A DNA stretch of 38,916 bases from a virus. The stretch is taken from IMG/VR virus record IMGVR_UViG_3300012931_000041, positions 1-38,916 of that record; one strand, given 5' to 3'. The position numbers and the translations under genes are program-made. The notes beneath the pieces were generated by a model, which was not told the DNA's origin, did not search any database, and was given only the letters and a program-made list of their open reading frames with translations. The stretch's first letter is position 1, and each line of letters starts with the position of its first letter. Positions 12,584 through 32,811 of the stretch are shown here, one piece after another.

Positions 12584-14781
12584 GCGCCTCCTGAAATTGT
12601 GGGCGAAAAACTGAGCGTCCCTTGAGGATGCTCGAGTTCGGTTTCTCGCTCGGCTTCCTCGAAGGTGAACGTCTGCCCGTTGCGCTCGTCGCACTCGTCG
12701 TCGAAGCTGCCCTTCTGCGAATCGAAGGCGAGCATCGAGTCGAACGTCCCCGAGCCCTTCGCAACCTCGATGCTTGATACGTTCTGCGCGTACTTCGTCT
12801 CGGTTCGGCTGATCGTCTCTGCCCGATACTGCCTGGCCGCCTTGTCGCCGGCCGCCGCCGCCTTCTCCTCGCTCCAGCCGCGGGCGATGGCGCGGTCGTG
12901 CGCTTCCTTCGCCACGCCGGGGTACATCGAGGCGCCCTCGACGTTGGAGCGCATGGTGCGGGCGATCTCGCGCGGCCCGAGGCCAGCAGTGCGGCCCTCG
13001 GCGAGCGCCTTGAAGACCGCGTCTTGGGTCTGCTTCTCGAGGTTGACGAGGGCGATATGCTTCCCGCCCTTGGCGAGAATCTCGCGCTGGACGAGGTCAG
13101 GCAGGTCGAGGGCGACGCCATAGATGGCCTTGATGTTGCGCACGGTCGTCTGGGTCACGGCGAGGTAGTGGCCCTTCCACGCCAGCTCATCGGACAGGGC
13201 GCCGGCCTGGGTGGCGCGGGTCACGATCTTGTTGGCCTCAGCCTCGAGCTCGATGCCCTCGGGGCTATTCGGATCGATCTCTTCGGCTTTGCGGGCAGCG
13301 GGCGCGCGCGAGGCCAGGCCCGACGACTCGTAAGCGGAGACGATGCGATCGGCGATCGACACAAAGCCGCTTTCTAGCTCGCCCGTGTACGCGGCGCGGT
13401 GGCGCTCCTCGTACTGCGCCTGAGCCTTGGCAAATGCGCGCTCGCGGGAGGCGCCCTTCGTGTGGCGGGACTTCGAGACGGCGGGATCGGCGGGCGCGGC
13501 CGTGGATGTAGCAGGAGACGGATTGAGCGCCTCGATCTGCTCGAGGGTCAGCCCGTCCGGGACCTCGGTCACGCTGAACGGTACGCGCCTGATCTCGTCG
13601 GCGGGGGTCGTCTCGAAGCCGAGCTCCTTGCGCGCTTCAGCCCTCGAAATCACGCCGCCCGCGAAGTCGTTGACCATCCTGGTATGCAGCTTGTCCTCGT
13701 CCTCCTGTAGGACACGGACCTCGGACAGATCGAACTTGACCGTCCACTCGTCGGGGTTGGGCTCGAAGTCGTCGAGGAGCTGCGTCTCGAGCTCCGGCCC
13801 GATGAGGCGCTGGATCGGGATGATGGCGTCCTCGTAGGATTGCTCGCGCAGGCTCGTCATGGTCGCGCCTACGGCCGTCTGCGCAAGGCCCGCGCCGAAT
13901 CCTACGACGGCCGCCTTGACTCCGGTCACGGCGCAGACGCGCTCCTCGGGGATGCCGCGCATAGACGACAGATCCATGGCGGCAGGGGAGAAGCCGAATT
14001 GCTGAACCTTCGTCGGGCCCGCGTTGACCATAGGCTCGCCGCGATTGTCGCCGGAGAAGTGCGCCTTGATGTATTTCTTCGCCGCCTCGGCATCGAAGCC
14101 GCCGAGCACCTGCCCCGCCGCCACGTCGGGCGAGAAGAGGAGGCCGGGCACGCCCATGTTATGCAGCATGGAGGCCGCGAAGTTGTCGGCTTCCTCGTCG
14201 GTCGCCGCGTCGCGGATGACGGACTTCAGGGGCGCGAAGCCCTTGCGAGGGTTGAATGGGTCGATGCCGTAGCGCAGGTGGATCACGTCGGAGGGGTCGA
14301 GCTTCTGCGGCATCATCCCGCCGGGCGTGTACTGGTAGTAGCTCACGAAATCATTGGAGCCCTGGTTGACCATGGGCTCCATTTGGAAGTGCGGCACGTA
14401 CCAAAGTTCGCGGACGGACAGATCGCGGTTGCGGACTTTGACCATGTAGCCGTTGCCGTCCCAGATCAGGGACAGGATCACGCCCCACCAGAGCACCGTC
14501 CCCGAGTAGTTGGGATTCGGGCGGTTAAGGAGCTTGAGCATCGCATGATCTTTGACCGCCTCGCCCTTTCCGTCCTCGAGGTATATCGGGGCCTCGGGCC
14601 AGCGGCGGACGATCCAGAGCAGGACAGCCATGAGGAGCGAGGAGCCGGTCGGGTCGGCGGACAGCTTCGAATAGTCGCGCTTCGTACCGTAGGCGAAGGC
14701 GCCGAGGAAGCGGGAGAAGAGGCCGTGCTGCATCTCGGCGAGGGCCTTGCGGTTGGATACGATGGGGGAGCGGATGGTCAT
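12580..14781 (-). CDS. Portal protein fused to a MuF-type head morphogenesis domain
   Basis: About 733 residues, much longer than a normal HK97 portal (about 400). Residues 1-400 have portal hallmarks: RRWPEAPIYLED, GNGYMVKVRN, then DVIHLRYGIDPFNPRKGFAPL and GGVISRAEARKELG. After a Pro/Ala linker (about 415-435) the second half is a MuF-like minor head domain. It includes RAETISRTETKYAQN (a TE[ST]R-like motif, about 660) and near the end FDDECDERNGQTF followed by HPQGT. In many MuF domains the last motif is HPNCRC; the Cys pair is absent here. Start at 14781 is chosen for the ATGA overlap with terminase. The portal ring is the DNA channel; MuF may be an ejected internal protein. Confidence 0.9.
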   Translation of the reverse strand: MTIRSPIVSNRKALAEMQHGLFSRFLGAFAYGTKRDYSKLSADPTGSSLLMAVLLWIVRRWPEAPIYLEDGKGEAVKDHAMLKLLNRPNPNYSGTVLWWGVILSLIWDGNGYMVKVRNRDLSVRELWYVPHFQMEPMVNQGSNDFVSYYQYTPGGMMPQKLDPSDVIHLRYGIDPFNPRKGFAPLKSVIRDAATDEEADNFAASMLHNMGVPGLLFSPDVAAGQVLGGFDAEAAKKYIKAHFSGDNRGEPMVNAGPTKVQQFGFSPAAMDLSSMRGIPEERVCAVTGVKAAVVGFGAGLAQTAVGATMTSLREQSYEDAIIPIQRLIGPELETQLLDDFEPNPDEWTVKFDLSEVRVLQEDEDKLHTRMVNDFAGGVISRAEARKELGFETTPADEIRRVPFSVTEVPDGLTLEQIEALNPSPATSTAAPADPAVSKSRHTKGASRERAFAKAQAQYEERHRAAYTGELESGFVSIADRIVSAYESSGLASRAPAARKAEEIDPNSPEGIELEAEANKIVTRATQAGALSDELAWKGHYLAVTQTTVRNIKAIYGVALDLPDLVQREILAKGGKHIALVNLEKQTQDAVFKALAEGRTAGLGPREIARTMRSNVEGASMYPGVAKEAHDRAIARGWSEEKAAAAGDKAARQYRAETISRTETKYAQNVSSIEVAKGSGTFDSMLAFDSQKGSFDDECDERNGQTFTFEEAERETELEHPQGTLSFSPTISGGA

Positions 14782-16076
14782 ACGAACCCCCATTTAAGGC
14801 CAGGCTGTATCAGCTCATCGATCGCGTATCGCGCCGCGGCGAGGGCGTCGTCGTGGAAGCTGAATATCTCCTCGGTAGGCTGCCCGTTCTTGTCTTTCTT
14901 GTAGACCGCCCCCCGCACTTCCGTCGCGAGGCCTGGGCAGGCCTCGGGGTCGATGTGCCAGCGATGGCCGCGCAGGTAGGCGAAGCCCGACTTAACGAAG
15001 TCGGGCCGGCCGGACTTGTTGACGCCGACCATGTTGAAGCCAGCCTGCTGCCATTCCAGGATAGTCTTAGGCTCGGCCGAGTCGCCGCGCTGTAGCTCAT
15101 GCTTCCCGACGATGGGCGCGGCCGCGGCGATGATCCCTGAGTTGACGAGCTGCCGCACGTATAGCTCGCTGAAGCTGTAGAGTTCCCCGTCCTTGACGCC
15201 GATGCCCTCGGTCGCGTCGAAATGCTGGAAGCCGAAGTCGTGGCCCCAGAGTACCTGATCGAAGTCCTCGACCTTGTAGGGGCAGGGCTCATAGACGACA
15301 TTCGGGAAAGCCGCGTCGCCAAGCTCGCCCCATTCACCCAGGGCGTAAACTTGATACATGGTCGGGTCGGTGAGGCGAAGGGCCTCGAGCTCAGCCTTAT
15401 AGCCCTCGTCGATCCACTGGTTGTCGAGGTAGGTCGAGCGCAGGATTGTCGCGTTCGGCTTGGGGTTGTCAAAGAATTCCGCCTTCAGCCAGTGGCTAAC
15501 CGATATCGGGTTGAAGGTTAGCGTCATCTGGAACGGCTGGCGGGCCTGGCCTCGTAAGCGCAGGTTCAGTTGCCGGAAGTCCTCGGGCTCGAACTCAGAT
15601 GCTTCCTCGAGGCGGATATCGGTCAAGGGGCCGGACTTAAACGTCACGGACTTCGCATGCTCGCGCGCCCTGATGTCATTCATGCCGCGGAAGATGACCT
15701 CGTTGCCGTTGTGCTTGTTTCGGATCGTCAGCGCCGATTCAGATATGTCGTACAGCGGGGTAAGGTGCCAGGTATCGATCTTGTTGACGAGATCGGCGAA
15801 TGTCGAATAGCGGTTGGACTCGCCGACCTTGCGCAGGATCATGTAGTTGTGGCCGGGCTCGGCGGTGAGCCTGAAGGCGTCGCGTTGCGCGGCCCCGACC
15901 GATTTGCCGGACCCCGCCCCGCCTACCCAGACGTTGAAGCGGTTGTGATCCCAGATCGTCGCGTAGAACTTCGGGTTCATCCACGCGGGCAGGGTTTTGA
16001 AATCTACAGAGAGCACGGTCGCCCCCAGGTTGGCGGTGAAGATGATCGCGGCGAGAAAGGCGGCGATCCTACGCAT
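14778..16076 (-). CDS. terL: Terminase large subunit
   Basis: 432 residues. Walker A is VGGAGSGKSVGAA at about residue 50-62. Walker B is the acidic stretch TDIRLEEASE near 152. The coupling and motor region continues with LTFNPISVSHW. The RNase H-like nuclease begins near GHDFGFQHFDATEGIGV (about 278), with D in that strand and HDDALAAARYA near the C-terminus providing acidic metal ligands. This fits the PBSX/B-family (Terminase_3-like) ATPase-nuclease that packages DNA. The first 24 residues form an odd hydrophobic extension (RRIAAFLAAIIFTANLGA). A GTG at residue 21 preceded by a G-rich stretch is an alternative start. Confidence 0.95.
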   Translation of the reverse strand: MRRIAAFLAAIIFTANLGATVLSVDFKTLPAWMNPKFYATIWDHNRFNVWVGGAGSGKSVGAAQRDAFRLTAEPGHNYMILRKVGESNRYSTFADLVNKIDTWHLTPLYDISESALTIRNKHNGNEVIFRGMNDIRAREHAKSVTFKSGPLTDIRLEEASEFEPEDFRQLNLRLRGQARQPFQMTLTFNPISVSHWLKAEFFDNPKPNATILRSTYLDNQWIDEGYKAELEALRLTDPTMYQVYALGEWGELGDAAFPNVVYEPCPYKVEDFDQVLWGHDFGFQHFDATEGIGVKDGELYSFSELYVRQLVNSGIIAAAAPIVGKHELQRGDSAEPKTILEWQQAGFNMVGVNKSGRPDFVKSGFAYLRGHRWHIDPEACPGLATEVRGAVYKKDKNGQPTEEIFSFHDDALAAARYAIDELIQPGLKWGFV

Positions 16077-16434
16077 CGGGCGCCCCCTCGGGTTTTGGGG
16101 GTAGGCCGATGCTGATCGGGCCGAGGAGCTCGACCTTGCTGCCCTCGGTTGCCTCGCGGATCTCGCGCATGAGGGAGACGGCAGCCGGGCCGCCGGATAT
16201 CAGCACCTGCTTGACGACGCGGTTGACCAGCTTCTCGCCGGTCATGTCCTGCTCGGCCCCGTCGACCCTGACCTTGAAGCGCTCGGCTAGGAACTCGCCG
16301 TATATCTGAGACATGAGCTTTTTCTCATGGCGAGCGACGACGGATTTCTTCCCGCCGGCGCTCCCCCGCTTCTTTGCTTCGTCTTTGCTTAGAGCTCGTA
16401 TCGGCCTAAGATTCGCAGTTTTATCTCTAGGCAT
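16069..16434 (-). CDS. terS: Terminase small subunit
   Basis: 121 residues. The basic N-terminus (MPRDKTANLRPIRALSKDEAKKRGSAGGKKS) would bind DNA. The middle is helical (EKKLMSQIYGEFLAERFKV, then KLVNRVVKQVLISGGPAAVSLMREI). It sits immediately upstream of the large subunit and overlaps it by 8 bases. The small subunit recognises the packaging site. GAAGGA lies a few bases before the ATG. No clear sigma70 -35/-10 pair is visible on this strand upstream, which fits a late promoter needing another factor. Confidence 0.8.
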   Translation of the reverse strand: MPRDKTANLRPIRALSKDEAKKRGSAGGKKSVVARHEKKLMSQIYGEFLAERFKVRVDGAEQDMTGEKLVNRVVKQVLISGGPAAVSLMREIREATEGSKVELLGPISIGLPPKPEGAPDA

Positions 16435-16558: not shown

Positions 16559-16942
16559 ATGAACAAGACGATTAGTAAGTACATGAGCGAGCAGGGTGCA
16601 AAGGGTGGAGCTGCGAAGTCCGATAGCAAGACCGCGGCCGTGCAAGCCAATGGGGCTCTCGGCGGGCGCCCTTCCGGGAAGATCATCACGGCATGGAAAG
16701 ACGACATCAAGGTCGGTATCTGGGACAACGAGGAGTGGACTCTTCGCCTCTACGCCGATCGCGCCGTGCTGCATTACCCGACCGTCAAATGGGTCAACAA
16801 TAGCGGCAGCCTGAAATACTGCTCGATGCGAATCGAGGGCAAGACGCACGCGCGCCTGCTCAAGATCGCTGACAATCAGATCGCCGACGACGAGGACTAC
16901 ACCGAAGAAGTCAAAGAGCTTGTTTGGGACTACATGAGGTAA
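16559..16942 (+). CDS. Early/regulated protein with NG..GGRP motif, function unknown
   Basis: 127 residues, first gene of a two-gene plus-strand operon. The first 42 residues are basic and low in complexity (SEQGAKGGAAKSDSKTAAV, then NGALGGRPSGK). The GGRP motif is typical of AT-hook-like minor-groove contacts. The remaining 85 residues form a compact mixed domain (AWKDDIKVGIWDNEEWTLRLY; later MRIEGKTHARLLKIADNQI). No recognised enzyme motif. A strong promoter lies upstream with GAGGAGG before the ATG. Convergent late and replication operons flank it, so a regulatory or host-takeover role is plausible but unproven. Confidence 0.8.
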   Translation: MNKTISKYMSEQGAKGGAAKSDSKTAAVQANGALGGRPSGKIITAWKDDIKVGIWDNEEWTLRLYADRAVLHYPTVKWVNNSGSLKYCSMRIEGKTHARLLKIADNQIADDEDYTEEVKELVWDYMR

Positions 16943-16946
16943 TCGA

Positions 16947-17321
16947 TTGAAAGCTCTCACGGTAAAAAACCCCTGGGCATATTTGATATGCTCGGGGGCG
17001 AAGGACATCGAGAACCGATCATGGCGCACATCGTTTCGCGGGCGCGTGCTCATCCACTCGGCCGCCGCCCTCGATCTGCGCGACTTCGTCCCGCGCGTCG
17101 ACTGCCCCGCGCCCCGCTCGGCTATTATCGGCTCGGTCGAGATAGTCGACTGCATCCGCGACAGCTCAAGCCCGTGGGCCTTCGCCGGATTCTGGCACTG
17201 GGTTTTGTGCGACCCCGTGCTCTTCGAGCGCCCGATACTAGACATTCGCGGCGCCCTCTCGTTTTGGGAGATACCGGAAGGAATAAGTATTCCGGTTTGC
17301 CGAAACTGTCTTGTTGAGTGA
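16947..17321 (+). CDS. ASCH-domain protein
   Basis: 124 residues beginning at a TTG codon, with GAGGT upstream and only four bases after the preceding stop. The N-terminal 40 residues carry ASCH hallmarks: LTVKNPWAYLICSGAKDIENRSW, then R(T)SFRGRVLIHSAA. ASCH is a PUA-like beta-barrel that binds RNA. Members include nucleic-acid hydrolases and RNA-interacting regulators. GSVEIVDCIRDS and HWVLCDPVLFERPI in the C-terminal half fit the rest of the barrel. The last 84 bases overlap the 3' end of the convergent minus-strand ATPase gene. The substrate is unknown. Confidence 0.88.
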   Translation: MKALTVKNPWAYLICSGAKDIENRSWRTSFRGRVLIHSAAALDLRDFVPRVDCPAPRSAIIGSVEIVDCIRDSSSPWAFAGFWHWVLCDPVLFERPILDIRGALSFWEIPEGISIPVCRNCLVE

Positions 17322-18317
17322 TTTAAGATTTTTGTTCGGAGAAGTGTGCCCGGCTCTTACTAGAATCCAGTTTTTTTCTCTCATCCATGATTTTGCAAAC
17401 CCCTTATGTGAGGTTGTAATTCCCACGTAATCGATTTTCGAGTTGTAATAATTTGCACAGAAATTAACTAGGCGGGAATTTAACCCTATCCCTTGGTAAT
17501 CAGGGAGCACCACGAATCGATGACCCTTCATCATGGACAATCCCATCGTGTTAGGGAAATGAATCCATGCGCTGAACCCAATGGGCTTGCCGTGGTAGAA
17601 CGCGACAAACTCATCAGCCGAGGAGCTGATGTCGTGATTTAGATAGTGATAACGCCTAAACATTCCCCATAACCCTTTAACTTTGCGAACTTCAATATCG
17701 ATTTGGGGGCGACAAACCGACCCCCTTGTCATCTGCATTTCGTCTGTCGAGAAAACCCAATCCGGCTCAAGCCAGTCGATTACGTCGTAGTGACAGGTGA
17801 CGGCGATGAACTTCTTACCCGATCGCCTGACGCTACGCTGCAACGCGAGGCTTCCGATCTGCGCGACCTCGCGGTCAACGACCGACGTATACTCGTCGAA
17901 GATGATGATCTCTTGATCTTGGAGGATCGCCCGCGCGAGGTCGACGCGCATTTTCTCGCCGTTCGACAGAACTTCGTAGGGCTTGAGCCAGGAAGGCGGC
18001 GAGGCGAAGCCGACCGAGGACAGCACGCCGAAAAGATCGACGCTCGGGATCTTCTTGTCGAAGTCATCTATCACGCAGGCGGACTTATACTTGAATTTCG
18101 CGAAGTATTCGCCGAAAAGCTCGCGGGCTATCGTCGTCTTGCCGGTCCCCGACTTGCCGACGATGACGCCGATATTCCAGGACTCAGGCGGCGTGATCTC
18201 GCCCGTGAAGCGCTCGTCGAAACGATCCTCGGAGATGTCGAATTGATCGTAGAGCTGGGCGACACGGAAAGACTTCGTGCCGATCTCGTTATGTTTCACA
18301 ATGTCGAAATTCGGCAT
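17238..18317 (-). CDS. ABC-type ATPase fused to GNAT-like (Mom-type) acetyltransferase
   Basis: 359 residues. The N-terminal 200 residues form a soluble ABC ATPase: Walker A GKSGTGKTT (about 54-62), signature LSNGEKMRVDLARAI, Walker B EIIIFDEYTS followed by SVVD, and a switch His in VTCHYDV. No transmembrane segments. The C-terminal 150 residues fit a GNAT fold: FRRYHYLNHDIS, AFYHGKPIGFSAW, GHRFVVLPDYQGIGLNSRLV (acetyl-CoA binding loop) and a final strand. The layout recalls phage Mu Mom-type DNA modification enzymes coupled to an ATPase. It is co-transcribed with the ParB-like gene and overlaps it by 22 bases. A DNA or RNA modification role is inferred, not shown. Confidence 0.82.
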   Translation of the reverse strand: MPNFDIVKHNEIGTKSFRVAQLYDQFDISEDRFDERFTGEITPPESWNIGVIVGKSGTGKTTIARELFGEYFAKFKYKSACVIDDFDKKIPSVDLFGVLSSVGFASPPSWLKPYEVLSNGEKMRVDLARAILQDQEIIIFDEYTSVVDREVAQIGSLALQRSVRRSGKKFIAVTCHYDVIDWLEPDWVFSTDEMQMTRGSVCRPQIDIEVRKVKGLWGMFRRYHYLNHDISSSADEFVAFYHGKPIGFSAWIHFPNTMGLSMMKGHRFVVLPDYQGIGLNSRLVNFCANYYNSKIDYVGITTSHKGFAKSWMREKNWILVRAGHTSPNKNLKSLNKTVSANRNTYSFRYLPKREGAANV

Positions 18318-19090
18318 TGAAGCCCCCTTTCGACGAACTCGGCATACAGCGATTGCGCTTCATCGTCATCCGCAACAGCTATGATCAGCTCGATCTTTTC
18401 GTGATAGCTCGCCTCGTCGCTCTCGCCCTTGGTTTCGGTTTCGCTCTTGCTCTCGCCGATTTCAAGCGTCCCGCTCGGCAGGTTTAATTCCTCGCTATCG
18501 ATTTCCAGCCCGTCCATAAACTCGATGACGCTGTCCACGCTCATCGTGCCATACTGCGAATTGAGCCGCAGGAGCTTCTGCTTCGCCTCGGCTTCGTCCT
18601 TCGCCTCGACGTAGGAGACCGGGAATAGTGGCAGATTCTCCCCGCGTCGGCGCATCTCGGCGAGGGCCTGGATGCGGCCGTGTCCGTCCAGGCAGCGGTT
18701 ATGGCCGTCGCCATTCCAGACGAAGAAGGGGAACGAGAAGCCGTACTTGGTGATCGAGGTAATAATCTTCTCGACATCGGCGGCGGTGCGCTTCTTGAGG
18801 TTGCCCTGAAATTCTTCGATGGCGTCGAGAGGGAGAAGATCAGCGCCGCGGCACTCGATGCGGATATTCGTCGGCCGCCCCTCTGGGCGCTTCATAGCCG
18901 GCGGCCCCTTCTCGGCAGGCGTGTTGGGTTTCTGCGTCTTTAGGTTTTCATGGGTGGCCTTCTTACTTGCGGTCTTCGAGGAGTCATTCGTCTTCGCTTT
19001 CTTCTTGCCCGAGCGAGCGCCTACGACGGCCTCAGCTTTCGCCTTAGCCGTCGAGGCCTTCGGGTTTCTCGCTCCGCTTTCTCGCGTCAT
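18296..19090 (-). CDS. ParB/Srx-fold nuclease-like protein
   Basis: 264 residues. Residues 1-75 are Lys/Ala-rich and disordered, likely contacting nucleic acid. Residues about 75-200 are a ParB-like domain: DLLPLDAIEEFQGNLKKRT, then KYGFSFPFFVWNGDG, then the signature CLDGHGRIQALAEM. The domain occurs in partition proteins and in phage-encoded nucleases or modification helpers. No ParA gene is in the window, so ordinary plasmid partition is doubtful. Iterons lie just upstream (19109-19174), and the next gene is the ATPase-acetyltransferase fusion. A DNA-binding role at these iterons is a reasonable guess. Confidence 0.85.
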   Translation of the reverse strand: MTRESGARNPKASTAKAKAEAVVGARSGKKKAKTNDSSKTASKKATHENLKTQKPNTPAEKGPPAMKRPEGRPTNIRIECRGADLLPLDAIEEFQGNLKKRTAADVEKIITSITKYGFSFPFFVWNGDGHNRCLDGHGRIQALAEMRRRGENLPLFPVSYVEAKDEAEAKQKLLRLNSQYGTMSVDSVIEFMDGLEIDSEELNLPSGTLEIGESKSETETKGESDEASYHEKIELIIAVADDDEAQSLYAEFVERGLQCRISTL

Positions 19091-19199: not shown

Positions 19200-19568
19200 C
19201 TACCGCCCCGTCGCCGCCTTCGCCAGTATCCTCCCCCAGTCCATCTCCATCATCTCGCCCTCGGTGACGGTTGAGTCGTCCGGCGCAGGAAGGAGGCGCG
19301 CTGCGAGCTCGGCGCTCAGCTGGTCGGCCGCGCGGATCCTTAGCTGCCGCCGGGCCTCGGGAAGGAGCTTCTCCATCGCCTGGATGTCGGGCGGGTAGCC
19401 GTTGACCTGGTTGATATGGCTCGGGCAAGTCGCGCGCATCTGTAGCCGGAGCTCGTCGAGCTCGGGCGCGGTGAGGCCCGAGAGGTACTCGGCGACGTCG
19501 TCGCGCTGGCCGAGGGGATAGGGGCCGTAGTAACCCGACGCCCAGATGACGAACTCCTTCACGGTCAT
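19200..19568 (-). CDS. Replication-associated small protein
   Basis: 122 residues, with ATGA overlap to the DUF1376 gene (19568-19565). It begins MTVKEFVIWASGYYGPY. The middle contains a Pro-Asp-Ile motif (NGYPPDIQAMEKLLPEARR), and the rest is helical. Small proteins with a YYGPY start and a later PDI motif often follow phage initiator genes, where some may act as helicase-loader partners. No Walker motif, so it is not a loader ATPase by itself. Function inferred from position. Confidence 0.6.
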   Translation of the reverse strand: MTVKEFVIWASGYYGPYPLGQRDDVAEYLSGLTAPELDELRLQMRATCPSHINQVNGYPPDIQAMEKLLPEARRQLRIRAADQLSAELAARLLPAPDDSTVTEGEMMEMDWGRILAKAATGR

Positions 19569-20485
19569 GCGCCGGCCTTGTCTATCCAAGACACGTCGGC
19601 GGCTGCGGCGTCCTTGCGCCATTGCGCCCAGAGGTCCTCGAGGGCGGACAGCATCTTTGAGGGGGTGAAGGGTGACCAGTAGGGCTTTCCCGACTCGTAA
19701 AGGCGCCAATAGGTCTCGAGGAGGCCAAGCGCTGCGGCTTCGGGCTCGAGGTTGTCGGCGGAGGCTTTACGGCGAATCGCGGAGGCAAGGCGGACGAGGT
19801 TCGTGTTCTCTTTGGCGGGGGAAGCGAACTCGGGGACCTTGGCGCGGAAGCTGTCGGCAAGAGCGTCGCGGAGGAGGTCGCGGGGTTTCGGGGGCTTCCT
19901 GGACGCGCGAGCTTCGCGAGGAGAAGAGGGGGACGAGGAGGGGCGAGAGGTCGCCGCTTCGTTGCTCTCTTCTCCGGGTCTGAAGATTTCCGTGACCACG
20001 AAGGGCGAGTCCGCGACAGCGGACGCCTCTTCTCTTTCTTTCTTACTATCTGGAGGTGAAGGTGAAGGTGAAGAGCTTTCTCCTGGGTTATGGTTTGGGT
20101 TACGTTCCGGTATACCGGATGATAACCCCCCGGTTAACCCCCCGGTTTCTTGTGGGTTATTTTTAGGAGGTCGACCTCCTGTAAGTCCATTCTGTCTAGC
20201 TGAATCTCGCCTTTTCTCTGCTTTAGTCATTTCTTCGTCTGCTCGCTTGTTTTTGTAATTCCCGTTCTCGAGCGTGAAATAATAACCCAGGATAAACCGG
20301 GCGGTTTCGCTATCGGTTTTAGCTACTCGGGCTAAACGATCAATATCTGCCCCAATATCTCCATTTTTTAGCCAATAGTGCATGAGTAAAAGCAAGTAGG
20401 CCCCGTGTTCTTTGTCTAACAGTTGTTCAGTGTCACGGAGGTAGTCGCCTATGTAGATAGGCATCCAGATATCTACCTTTGCCAT
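19565..20485 (-). CDS. DUF1376-domain replication initiator-like protein
   Basis: 306 residues from the ATG at 20485, just past the antirepressor's TAA. Residues 1-100 are a DUF1376/YdaU domain: KVDIWMPIYIGDYLRDTEQL, then EHGAYLLLLMHYWLKNG, a winged-helix-like fold in phage replication proteins. A basic motif NGLTGGRPPK and a long Ser/Pro/Glu-rich linker (about 105-225) follow. The C-terminal part is helical and aromatic (ETYWRLYESGKPYWSPFTPSKMLSALEDLWAQW), resembling the DnaD-type end of such initiators. It probably opens or marks the phage origin for host helicase loading. Candidate iterons lie about 400 bases downstream. Confidence 0.8.
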   Translation of the reverse strand: MAKVDIWMPIYIGDYLRDTEQLLDKEHGAYLLLLMHYWLKNGDIGADIDRLARVAKTDSETARFILGYYFTLENGNYKNKRADEEMTKAEKRRDSARQNGLTGGRPPKNNPQETGGLTGGLSSGIPERNPNHNPGESSSPSPSPPDSKKEREEASAVADSPFVVTEIFRPGEESNEAATSRPSSSPSSPREARASRKPPKPRDLLRDALADSFRAKVPEFASPAKENTNLVRLASAIRRKASADNLEPEAAALGLLETYWRLYESGKPYWSPFTPSKMLSALEDLWAQWRKDAAAADVSWIDKAGA

Positions 20486-20486
20486 T

Positions 20487-21167
20487 TTACTTTGCTTCCC
20501 ACGCCTTAATCTGAGGCACGACACGAAGGCGCCATGTCTCAAGCTGAGAGGCTAAGACTACGGCTTGCTTGCGTACTGTGCCGTCTGGGCACTTTGTCTC
20601 CCTTAGCGCAAGGTATCCGGCTTCAATAGCCGATTGCGTCGGAAGATCGGCGCGCGTCAAATAGTCTCGATCGCGAAGATAGGGGAATACTTCGGTCTTT
20701 GGATGAAGGTCGAAATGCTTGGCCGCGTCGGTGATCGACATAGTGCGCTCGGATCGCATGAGGGCCTCGAAGGACTCGACCTTGGGCGCAGCGATCGCGA
20801 GGGCGGCCGTTTTGGCCTCGATTTCCTTTGCCTGATCGGCGGCGAGCTGTAGGGCTTCGGCGTAGGTCTTAGGAATGGCAGGCGTCGCGCCGCGCTCTAG
20901 TTCTATCCATCGGTCAATAATGCGGGCGCGAAGCTCGACCGAATAGCCGGAGACGAGGATCATGGTCTCGCGATAGGGGACATGATAAAAGCGATAGGTT
21001 TGACCATTTTGGGCATTCTGGTAGGTGTCCGCTTTAAGTTGACACCCCACCTTCGGCAATTCATTTTCAATCGAGCGGATTATACTACTATGTGCAGTAT
21101 ACAAAAGCTCCGCGATCTCGCGCGAATCCATCGCCAACACGCCGTCAATCTTGATTAGATCGTTCAT
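20487..21167 (-). CDS. Rha/KilAC-type phage antirepressor
   Basis: 226 residues. Residues 1-95 match the Rha-like domain (DSREIAELLYTAHSSIIRSIENEL, then YRFYHVPYRETMILVSGYSVELRARIIDRWIELE). Residues 115-226 match a KilAC-like C-terminal domain (SERTMSITDAAKHFDLHPKTEVFPYLRDRDYL). Proteins of this build counter a prophage repressor or shift early regulation. A strong AAGGAG sits before the ATG. The leader holds two hairpins and a U-tract (21182-21274), implying control by transcription attenuation. It is co-oriented with the replication genes downstream. Confidence 0.88.
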   Translation of the reverse strand: MNDLIKIDGVLAMDSREIAELLYTAHSSIIRSIENELPKVGCQLKADTYQNAQNGQTYRFYHVPYRETMILVSGYSVELRARIIDRWIELERGATPAIPKTYAEALQLAADQAKEIEAKTAALAIAAPKVESFEALMRSERTMSITDAAKHFDLHPKTEVFPYLRDRDYLTRADLPTQSAIEAGYLALRETKCPDGTVRKQAVVLASQLETWRLRVVPQIKAWEAK

Positions 21168-32739: not shown

Positions 32740-32811
32740 TAGGGGCGAGAGGGCTTGAACCTCCGGCGCGCGGGATATGAGCCCACTGCTCTACCTCTGA
32801 GCTACACCCCT
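32740..32811 (-). tRNA. tRNA-Met (anticodon CAT)
   Basis: Full cloverleaf on the minus strand. The acceptor stem is AGGGGTG with CGCCCCT, followed by discriminator A. The D-arm is GCTC, AGAGGTA, GAGC. The anticodon arm is GTGGG, loop CTCATAT, CCCGC. The variable loop has five bases, and the T-arm is GGAGG, TTCAAGC, CCTCT. The anticodon at loop positions 3-5 is CAT. No CCA is encoded. The A1:U72 end does not settle the choice: initiator tRNA usually has a mismatch there, so elongator Met or Ile (lysidine CAT) are the candidates. Confidence 0.93.

Follow-up and report, generated by a model that had tools for sequence, protein, structure and literature searches.

What is the function of an ABC-type ATPase that is fused to a GNAT acetyltransferase domain and encoded, together with a ParB-like protein, at the head of the packaging genes of a phage? 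The question is raised by a 38,916-nt stretch of viral DNA (IMG/VR virus record IMGVR_UViG_3300012931_000041, positions 1 to 38,916), hereafter referred to as the window, in which the placement of the terminase large subunit gene assigns the pair to that position. A first-pass annotation of the window had proposed that the fusion protein (ABC-GNAT) and its ParB-like partner mark phage DNA, or host RNA, in an energy-linked, Mom-like manner. The analysis presented here suggests that the pair is probably a writer of phage DNA modifications that fulfills the role of Mom with a different enzyme; a role in DNA marking emerges as the most likely one because ABC-GNAT occupies the position of mom in related phages.

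Replacement of Mom by ABC-GNAT in related phages

Between Porphyromonas phages 012a and 011a, the 3,239 nt that precede the slot in question show 90.3% DNA identity, and the 91 nt that follow it show 81%. However, 012a ends with two tail genes and Mom, whereas 011a ends with two tail genes, a small open reading frame (ORF), a stand-alone version of the ParB C-terminal module described below, ABC-GNAT and a formyltransferase (FT). A second case is provided by the Arthrobacter phages Sicarius2 and EastWest, where ParB-Mom and ParB-ABC-GNAT, respectively, are found at syntenic positions with homologous neighbors (sliding clamp, 53%; upstream gene, 67%). Their ParB domains share 60% identity over 129 amino acids (aa), but the tails are swapped together with the partner, i.e., a Cys-rich tail with a CPNCGHTF stretch accompanies Mom, and the module accompanies ABC-GNAT. 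A similar Cys tail is present in ParB-Mom of Microbacterium phage Appa.

The same exchange distinguishes locus L413 (Com-Mom) from locus L124 (Com-module-ABC-GNAT-FT), two loci that share 86.7% identity over a 278-nt stretch at com. Furthermore, Mom in locus L414 is positioned directly ahead of a terminase stretch that is ~69–71% identical to the one behind ABC-GNAT at L062, L063, L065, L082, L089 and L091, and it is to this terminase-slot branch, where L414 has Mom instead, that the window belongs. Equivalent function of Mom and ABC-GNAT is the simplest account of these swaps and our best reading of them, the alternative being a slot for exchangeable cargo.

Domains, motifs and predicted fold of ABC-GNAT

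Both parts of the window protein are recognized by Pfam above the curated cut-offs (ABC_tran, 7.3e-10; Acetyltransf_1, 1.5e-5), and the full-length protein matches phrog_11143 (1.7e-93), to which no function is assigned in PHROGs. The complete set of ABC motifs described in the first-pass annotation is indeed present, i.e., Walker A (GKSGTGKT, residues 54–61), the signature (LSNGE, 117–121) and Walker B (..DE, 141–142), in addition to a D-loop (SVVDR) and an H-switch (H176). In alignment A5, which comprises 91 rows and also served as input for the full-length AlphaFold2 (AF2) model, K60, D141, E142 and H176 are invariant, and the same holds for L, S and G in the signature. The GNAT domain contains the YHYL (223–226) and GIG (276–278) features pointed out earlier, and its conserved residues are H224-Y225-L226, R267, Q275-G-x-G and R342. 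Tyr225, Arg267 and Arg342 are invariant in A5, His224 and Gln275 are kept in 90/91 rows, and Asn280 of the window protein is replaced by Gly in 83/91 rows; the GNAT residues are conserved as strongly as those of the ABC domain.

The full-length AF2 model (pLDDT 91.7) consists of a nucleotide-binding domain (NBD; residues 1–202) followed by the GNAT domain (203–359). In the fold search, residues 1–202 align to NBDs of ABC proteins with Z scores of up to 15.1 (root mean square deviation, rmsd, 2.8; 175 residues aligned), and the GNAT-only AF2 model (pLDDT 90.7) gives a best Z score of 14.7 to 1y9k_D (rmsd 3.5; 133 aligned). In agreement with the earlier statement that a membrane part is lacking, no membrane family was matched in the Pfam search of the protein. 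Assignment as an ABC transporter was rejected, there being no transmembrane domain or permease, and the neighboring genes encoding ParB-like, ASCH and terminase proteins.

The YHYL and GIG features had been taken to indicate a Mom-like enzyme, however, the window ABC-GNAT does not match either of the Mom families PF25680 and phrog_1384. Comparison with Mom by hidden Markov model (HMM) profiles returned probabilities of 0.1% for Mu Mom and 0.3% for five Moms, with HY falling on HY in a non-significant alignment, and sub-threshold Mom matches of 14 bits were obtained for the GNAT region of LE4, Pmp13 and P335 only. The Mom structure (PDB code 8bv8) is absent among the fold-search matches listed for the full and GNAT-only models, an absence that does not exclude a structural match. 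Membership of the Mom family by sequence was rejected on the basis of the missing family matches and the low profile probability, and the YHYL/GIG resemblance is therefore at most remote.

Two variations of the ABC-GNAT architecture were observed. Four long ABC-GNATs of 454–476 aa (L092, L110, L114 and L116) have an extra C-terminal stretch, which by eye looks like a winged helix. At six split loci (L026, L043, L023, L035, L036 and L024), the ABC and GNAT parts are in two frames, GNAT always being in the –1 frame, with an overlap of 103–112 nt (e.g., L026, 4576–4678; L043, 4079–4181; L023, 5564–5675). In L026, L043 and L023, GNAT lacks a start codon of its own within the overlap, a situation suggestive of programmed frameshifting.

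The ParB-like partner and its constant C-terminal module

The ParB-like gene adjoins that of ABC-GNAT in 99/103 IMG/VR loci, the two genes overlapping by exactly 22 nt in 94/103, and pairing among the IMG/VR relatives is thus far beyond chance; the locus sets include near-duplicates, e.g., L009/L067. The overlap seen in the window by the first-pass annotation has the same length. Adjacent ParB-like genes are also found at 66/80 genome loci and 11/19 annotated phage loci. At least 1.6 kb of downstream sequence is available for 83/103 IMG/VR loci, and 77 of these 83 have a first ORF of 250+ aa, which matches Terminase_6N in 52/77 and Terminase_3 in 48/77 cases. The order ParB-like, ABC-GNAT, small terminase (TerS) and large terminase (TerL) is therefore the common layout, as in the window.

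The window ParB-like protein matches the PHROGs families phrog_620 (1.3e-10) and phrog_498 (9.5e-14), its ParB domain being closest to the front (ParB) part of the latter, which is a phage DNA-methyltransferase family. The protein itself is below detection by Pfam ParB_N, and 15/23 aligned ParB-like homologues match this family at E≤0.1. The ParB-like proteins are highly divergent, with 16–26% identity to that of the window in 18/22 rows. Most divergent ParBs end in the same short module, which comprises ~45 aa (~36 residues in the window protein) and has a conserved G-x-x-C near its end. At Mu-like loci, an ORF of usually 47–66 aa between Com and ABC-GNAT consists of this module alone, without ParB; the corresponding ORF in Komp_PAO1_1 is phrog_28816. 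These stand-alone ORFs identify the module as the constant partner and ParB as an added domain, and the module is predicted to be the docking part for ABC-GNAT. A bacterial ParB-acetyltransferase fusion that binds GTP is a possible parallel (PMC12704722).

Full-length ParB is kept at some FT loci, e.g., L190, L193 and L199. The ParB HMM flagged adjacent genes at 51/80 FT loci, which cannot be read as a count of full ParB since most of these matches proved on inspection to be the C-terminal module only. Among the 78 FT loci that hold ABC-GNAT, a script returned no upstream ORF for 8, and several of the ORFs listed for the other 70 appear to be spurious.

A formyltransferase branch with Com

In Komp_PAO1_1, Porphyromonas phages and the Gordonia phage Ligma, an FT gene follows that of ABC-GNAT, as assigned by PF00551 for the first two and by an HMM match for Ligma. 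A search with FT alone yielded 219 relatives; among the best 80, ABC-GNAT is present at 78 loci and adjacent at 75. Examples of FT genes are L033 5074–5691, L042 4616–5089, L032 1805–2452 and those of L124–L203. The closest solved relatives of FT are the N-terminal domains of 10-formyl-tetrahydrofolate (THF) dehydrogenases (8e-24), followed by methionyl-tRNA and PurN enzymes. His and Asp are kept in 83/83 aligned sequences, and the residue two positions before His, which we take to correspond to the catalytic Asn of PurN, is Gly in 76/83.

The ORF just upstream matches Mu Com at 52/80 FT loci and in Komp_PAO1_1, and Zn_ribbon_Com (PF10122) was confirmed by Pfam in 3/3 tested (73.5, 64.1 and 48.5 bits, compared with a cut-off of 22.9 and 36.8 bits for Mu Com itself). 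At the record level, for which 50 of the 80 FT and 30 of the 103 non-FT records were tested, Com exceeds the cut-off in 37/50 versus 1/30, and the single non-FT match has an internal stop. Com activates translation of mom (PMC6483171). The MuB-like family phrog_296 is matched at E≤1e-18 in 24/50 FT and 0/30 non-FT records, a cut that was chosen after the list had been seen, because of weak P-loop matches in all 14 control genomes; the Mu transposase family PF02914 (5/50) was rejected as a Mu-like marker for being too narrow. A contig end lies within 1.6 kb at 38/80 FT and 20/103 non-FT loci, which is a weak sign of a Mu right end since contigs may be fragments.

Proposed function of the pair

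From these data we infer a DNA substrate, coupling to ATP, the acyl group, the base and protection. The ParB-like protein would bind to or track along phage DNA, and its small C-terminal module would dock ABC-GNAT. Binding and hydrolysis of ATP are expected for the ABC domain, which probably dimerizes and is gated either by DNA or by the module; we propose that the ATP cycle would thereby time delivery of the base to the GNAT domain. The latter may transfer an acyl group from acyl-CoA to an exocyclic amine, i.e., adenine N6 or cytosine N4. Expression just upstream of the terminase genes would allow the replicated DNA to be marked before packaging, and the proposed consequence is that restriction would be blocked in the next host.

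A more far-reaching and decidedly tentative proposal is that ABC-GNATs in general use ATP to drive the acylation of DNA, with the docking module as the constant element of the machinery. In the Mu-like branch, FT would provide a formyl-thioester (e.g., formyl-CoA) for GNAT to write an N-formyl or formylated aminoacyl base, and branches without FT, such as that of the window, would use other acyl groups from host acyl-CoA. Mom, ABC-GNAT and methyltransferase writers would share a set of exchangeable aiming parts, made up of the ParB domains, the small module and the Cys-rich tails.

Energy-linked modification of the Mom type, as put forward in the first-pass annotation, stands as the best reading in the light of the swaps, Com and the winged-helix-like extensions, but the GNAT domain has to be placed outside the Mom family by sequence, and this is one of several points that weigh against a Mom-like role. 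The chemistry of every family member is a prediction, and TmcA, the tRNA-modifying enzyme considered below, acts on RNA. No FT gene was seen adjoining the window pair, and the Com evidence comes from the other branch, which has ~30% identity to the window. It is also conceivable that the mom slot accepts cargo in general. Aeromonas phage AsFcp_2 (MH791401.1) has both Mom and ABC-GNAT (206463–207059 and 157–1335), and the two are therefore not simply interchangeable. ParB adjoins Mom at only 3/85 Mom loci, so that the sharing of ParB does not extend to Mom loci in general, and 8/19 annotated phage loci have no detected ParB-like neighbor. Finally, a search in which four Mom carriers were detected as controls did not find Mom in 50 FT records and 31 others; the latter include the window, where its absence is a further point of this kind.

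Alternative functions

The second option raised by the first-pass annotation, i.e., modification of host RNA by the pair, has less support than modification of DNA. The protein would in that case be a TmcA-like RNA-base acetyltransferase that acylates cytidines of tRNA or rRNA, e.g., to sustain translation under tRNA attack, with the ASCH protein as a hydrolase or reader of N4-acetylcytidine (ac4C). TmcA (2zpa) ranks first in the Foldseek search with the whole model (E 3.7e-9) and second with the GNAT domain alone (E 3.2e-6), and the window contains one tRNA-Met (CAT) gene (32740–32811, –). However, the TM-scores are low (TMq 0.32 for the whole model and 0.63 for GNAT), and membership of the TmcA family was rejected because the window ATPase is of the ABC type, with the LSNGE signature, whereas that of TmcA is helicase-like. 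TmcA may be regarded as setting a precedent for this type of chemistry, without proving which substrate is used. With the replacement in the Mom slot, the winged-helix-like extensions and the ParB partners all favoring DNA over RNA, we consider an RNA substrate unlikely.

The ASCH neighbor bears on the same question. The ASCH protein YqfB is an amidohydrolase for N4-acylcytosines that hydrolyzes ac4C and uses Lys21, Thr24 and Glu74 (PMC6972931). In nine aligned ASCH proteins, Lys19, Glu22 and Arg24 are invariant. Glu22 of the window protein presumably corresponds to the nucleophile Thr24, a placement made by eye; on this placement, the invariant Glu speaks against hydrolysis of the YqfB type. 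With Lys and Arg kept but Glu at the presumed Thr24 position, a reader role appears as likely as hydrolysis.

The alternative that the pair is another type of anti-defense or host-takeover cargo, in which GNAT would acetylate a protein of the host (e.g., a restriction enzyme or RNA polymerase) and the mom slot would simply accommodate cargo, is in our view improbable. The phage GNAT Rac of phiKMV modifies RNA polymerase (cited in PMC7824862), and the fold matches of the GNAT-only model are dominated by protein acetyltransferases (RimI and Naa50), but a GNAT fold is not specific enough to reveal the substrate. Moreover, cargo of this kind leaves unexplained why Com is located upstream, why the ParB domain is shared with the Mom pair, why DNA-binding-like extensions occur, and why the place beside the packaging genes is constant. 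Restriction-like or segregation use, where ParB and the ABC ATPase would serve to partition or cleave DNA and GNAT would be regulatory, is highly improbable, since despite the DNA nicking reported for proteins of the ParB/Srx superfamily (PMC12839542), the ParB domain is dispensable, Mu-like loci mostly retaining the C-terminal module only, the GNAT residues are conserved like the ABC ones, and PADLOC yields ATPase matches only.

Gene neighborhood and distribution

The features of the window that surround the proposed DNA-modifying pair are summarized in Table 1. Upstream of the pair, genes for a DUF1376 primosomal-type protein and a Rha/KilAC antirepressor (19565–21167, –) are present, as in temperate phages, and a 127-aa ORF between the ASCH and putative TerS genes (16559–16942, +) has no significant family match.

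Table 1 Features of the ABC-GNAT locus in window coordinates
Feature	Position	Strand	Basis
ABC ATPase-GNAT fusion, 359 aa, predicted DNA-base acyltransferase	17238..18317	–	PF00005, PF00583, phrog_11143, AF2 model, conservation
ABC ATPase domain, residues 1–202	17712..18317	–	PF00005; NBD folds, Z up to 15.1; conservation
GNAT domain, residues 203–359	17238..17711	–	PF00583; GNAT-only AF2 model matching GNAT structures
ParB-like protein, 264 aa, predicted targeting/loading subunit	18296..19090	–	phrog_498, phrog_620; adjacency in relatives
ParB-like C-terminal module (..EAQSLYAEFVERGLQCRISTL), predicted ABC-GNAT docking part	18296..18406	–	Shared ends, stand-alone ORFs, tail swap
22-nt overlap of ParB-like and ABC-GNAT genes	18296..18317	–	Translational coupling inferred
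ASCH-domain protein, 124 aa, optional partner	16947..17321	+	PF04266; recurrence counts
Putative small terminase	16069..16434	–	phrog_2412 (without named function); position ahead of TerL
Terminase large subunit	14778..16076	–	PF04466, 1.3e-42

The ASCH gene was correctly located on the opposite strand by the first-pass annotation; it is convergent to the ABC-GNAT gene and overlaps its 3′ end by 84 nt, and the protein matches PF04266 with 26 bits (cut-off 21.2). ASCH genes are found at 6/103 IMG/VR, 11/80 genome, 4/19 annotated phage, 0/80 FT and 0/85 Mom loci, counts that derive from sets differing in locus length, and conversely a scan starting from the window ASCH protein has ABC-GNAT at 1/54 loci. 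As a minority of loci in every set, ASCH was rejected as an obligate partner, and the suggestion that it reads or processes the marks is unproven, also in view of the Glu at the presumed Thr24 position. The convergent layout of the window recurs at Nonomuraea, Planomonospora and gammaproteobacterial loci; at L249, L252 and L273, ASCH is convergent downstream of ABC-GNAT, as in the window.

A tblastn search with ABC-GNAT retrieved 67 phage records, with carriers including phages of Streptococcus, Lactococcus (P335), Oenococcus, Leptospira (LE4), Gordonia, Pasteurella, Vibrio, Aeromonas and Porphyromonas. Profile scans gave at least 594 relatives in IMG/VR and 481 in genome contigs, of which 80 each were kept. 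The best genome matches are two contigs of Treponema metagenome-assembled genomes (60% and 58%); one of the loci, L205, also holds ParB-like (54%) and ASCH (62%) genes, which makes a Treponema host likely. ABC-GNAT is further present in contigs of seven Nonomuraea genomes (L242, L243, L247, L249, L251, L252 and L263) and of Planomonospora (L273).

Relation to earlier predictions and known systems

The core idea, i.e., that ABC-GNAT is a DNA modifier, is already in print as a prediction. Uncharacterized acyl modification of DNA bases by an ABC ATPase-coupled GNAT was predicted in 2013 (Iyer et al.) and restated in 2021 (PMC7824862), with pT24 and QAX98348.1 named as members. The former is homologue H36 of the window protein, and the latter, from Aeromonas AsFcp_2, is homologue H38 (32.6% identity, E 2e-41 by tblastn). 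By this homology and the match to phrog_11143, the window protein is assigned to the ABC-GNAT family of predicted DNA modifiers. The passages of Iyer et al. 2021 (PMC7824862) covered here do not contain the Mom/ABC-GNAT swaps, Com, the formyltransferase or the stand-alone module. Our literature searches found no links of ABC-GNAT to Com, formyltransferase or Mom swaps, which does not prove their absence, and nothing relevant on phrog_11143, COG2401 or formyltransferase in Mu-like phages, subscription papers being thinly covered. What is new here is independent genomic evidence for equivalence with Mom, a redefined constant partner, and the formyltransferase as a lead to the chemistry.

The Mom/ABC-GNAT swaps in near-identical phages allow the 2013 prediction to be examined in cultured phages by a clean pairwise comparison, which asks whether acylation of DNA bases can be driven by an ABC ATPase. 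If the prediction holds, ABC-GNATs represent a class of DNA modification that is coupled to energy and shared by phages from many groups of bacteria, with relevance to anti-restriction and to the detection of modified bases by sequencing, and it would explain phage genes labeled as ABC or siderophore transporters, labels that some phage homologues now carry.

To our knowledge, Mom is the only characterized GNAT-type phage DNA modifier. Mom of phage Mu (PF25680; 8bv8) likewise is a GNAT-type enzyme acting on DNA and shares its genomic slot and the Com regulator with ABC-GNAT of the Mu-like branch, but unlike the window protein it has no ABC domain. TmcA, the tRNA(Met) cytidine acetyltransferase, resembles ABC-GNAT in having an ATPase joined to a GNAT domain and in acetylating an exocyclic base amine; its ATPase, however, is not of the ABC type, and its substrate is tRNA. 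In the ParB-fused phage DNA methyltransferases (phrog_498), the same ParB domain fronts a DNA base-modifying enzyme, however, judged from the family name and profile length, the methyltransferase writer is in the same chain, whereas ABC-GNAT of the window is a separate protein. Finally, the closest solved relative of the FT in the sister branch is the N-terminal domain of 10-formyl-THF dehydrogenase (2bw0), which loads formyl onto a pantetheine thiol, and we take both to be without the usual Asn two residues before His.

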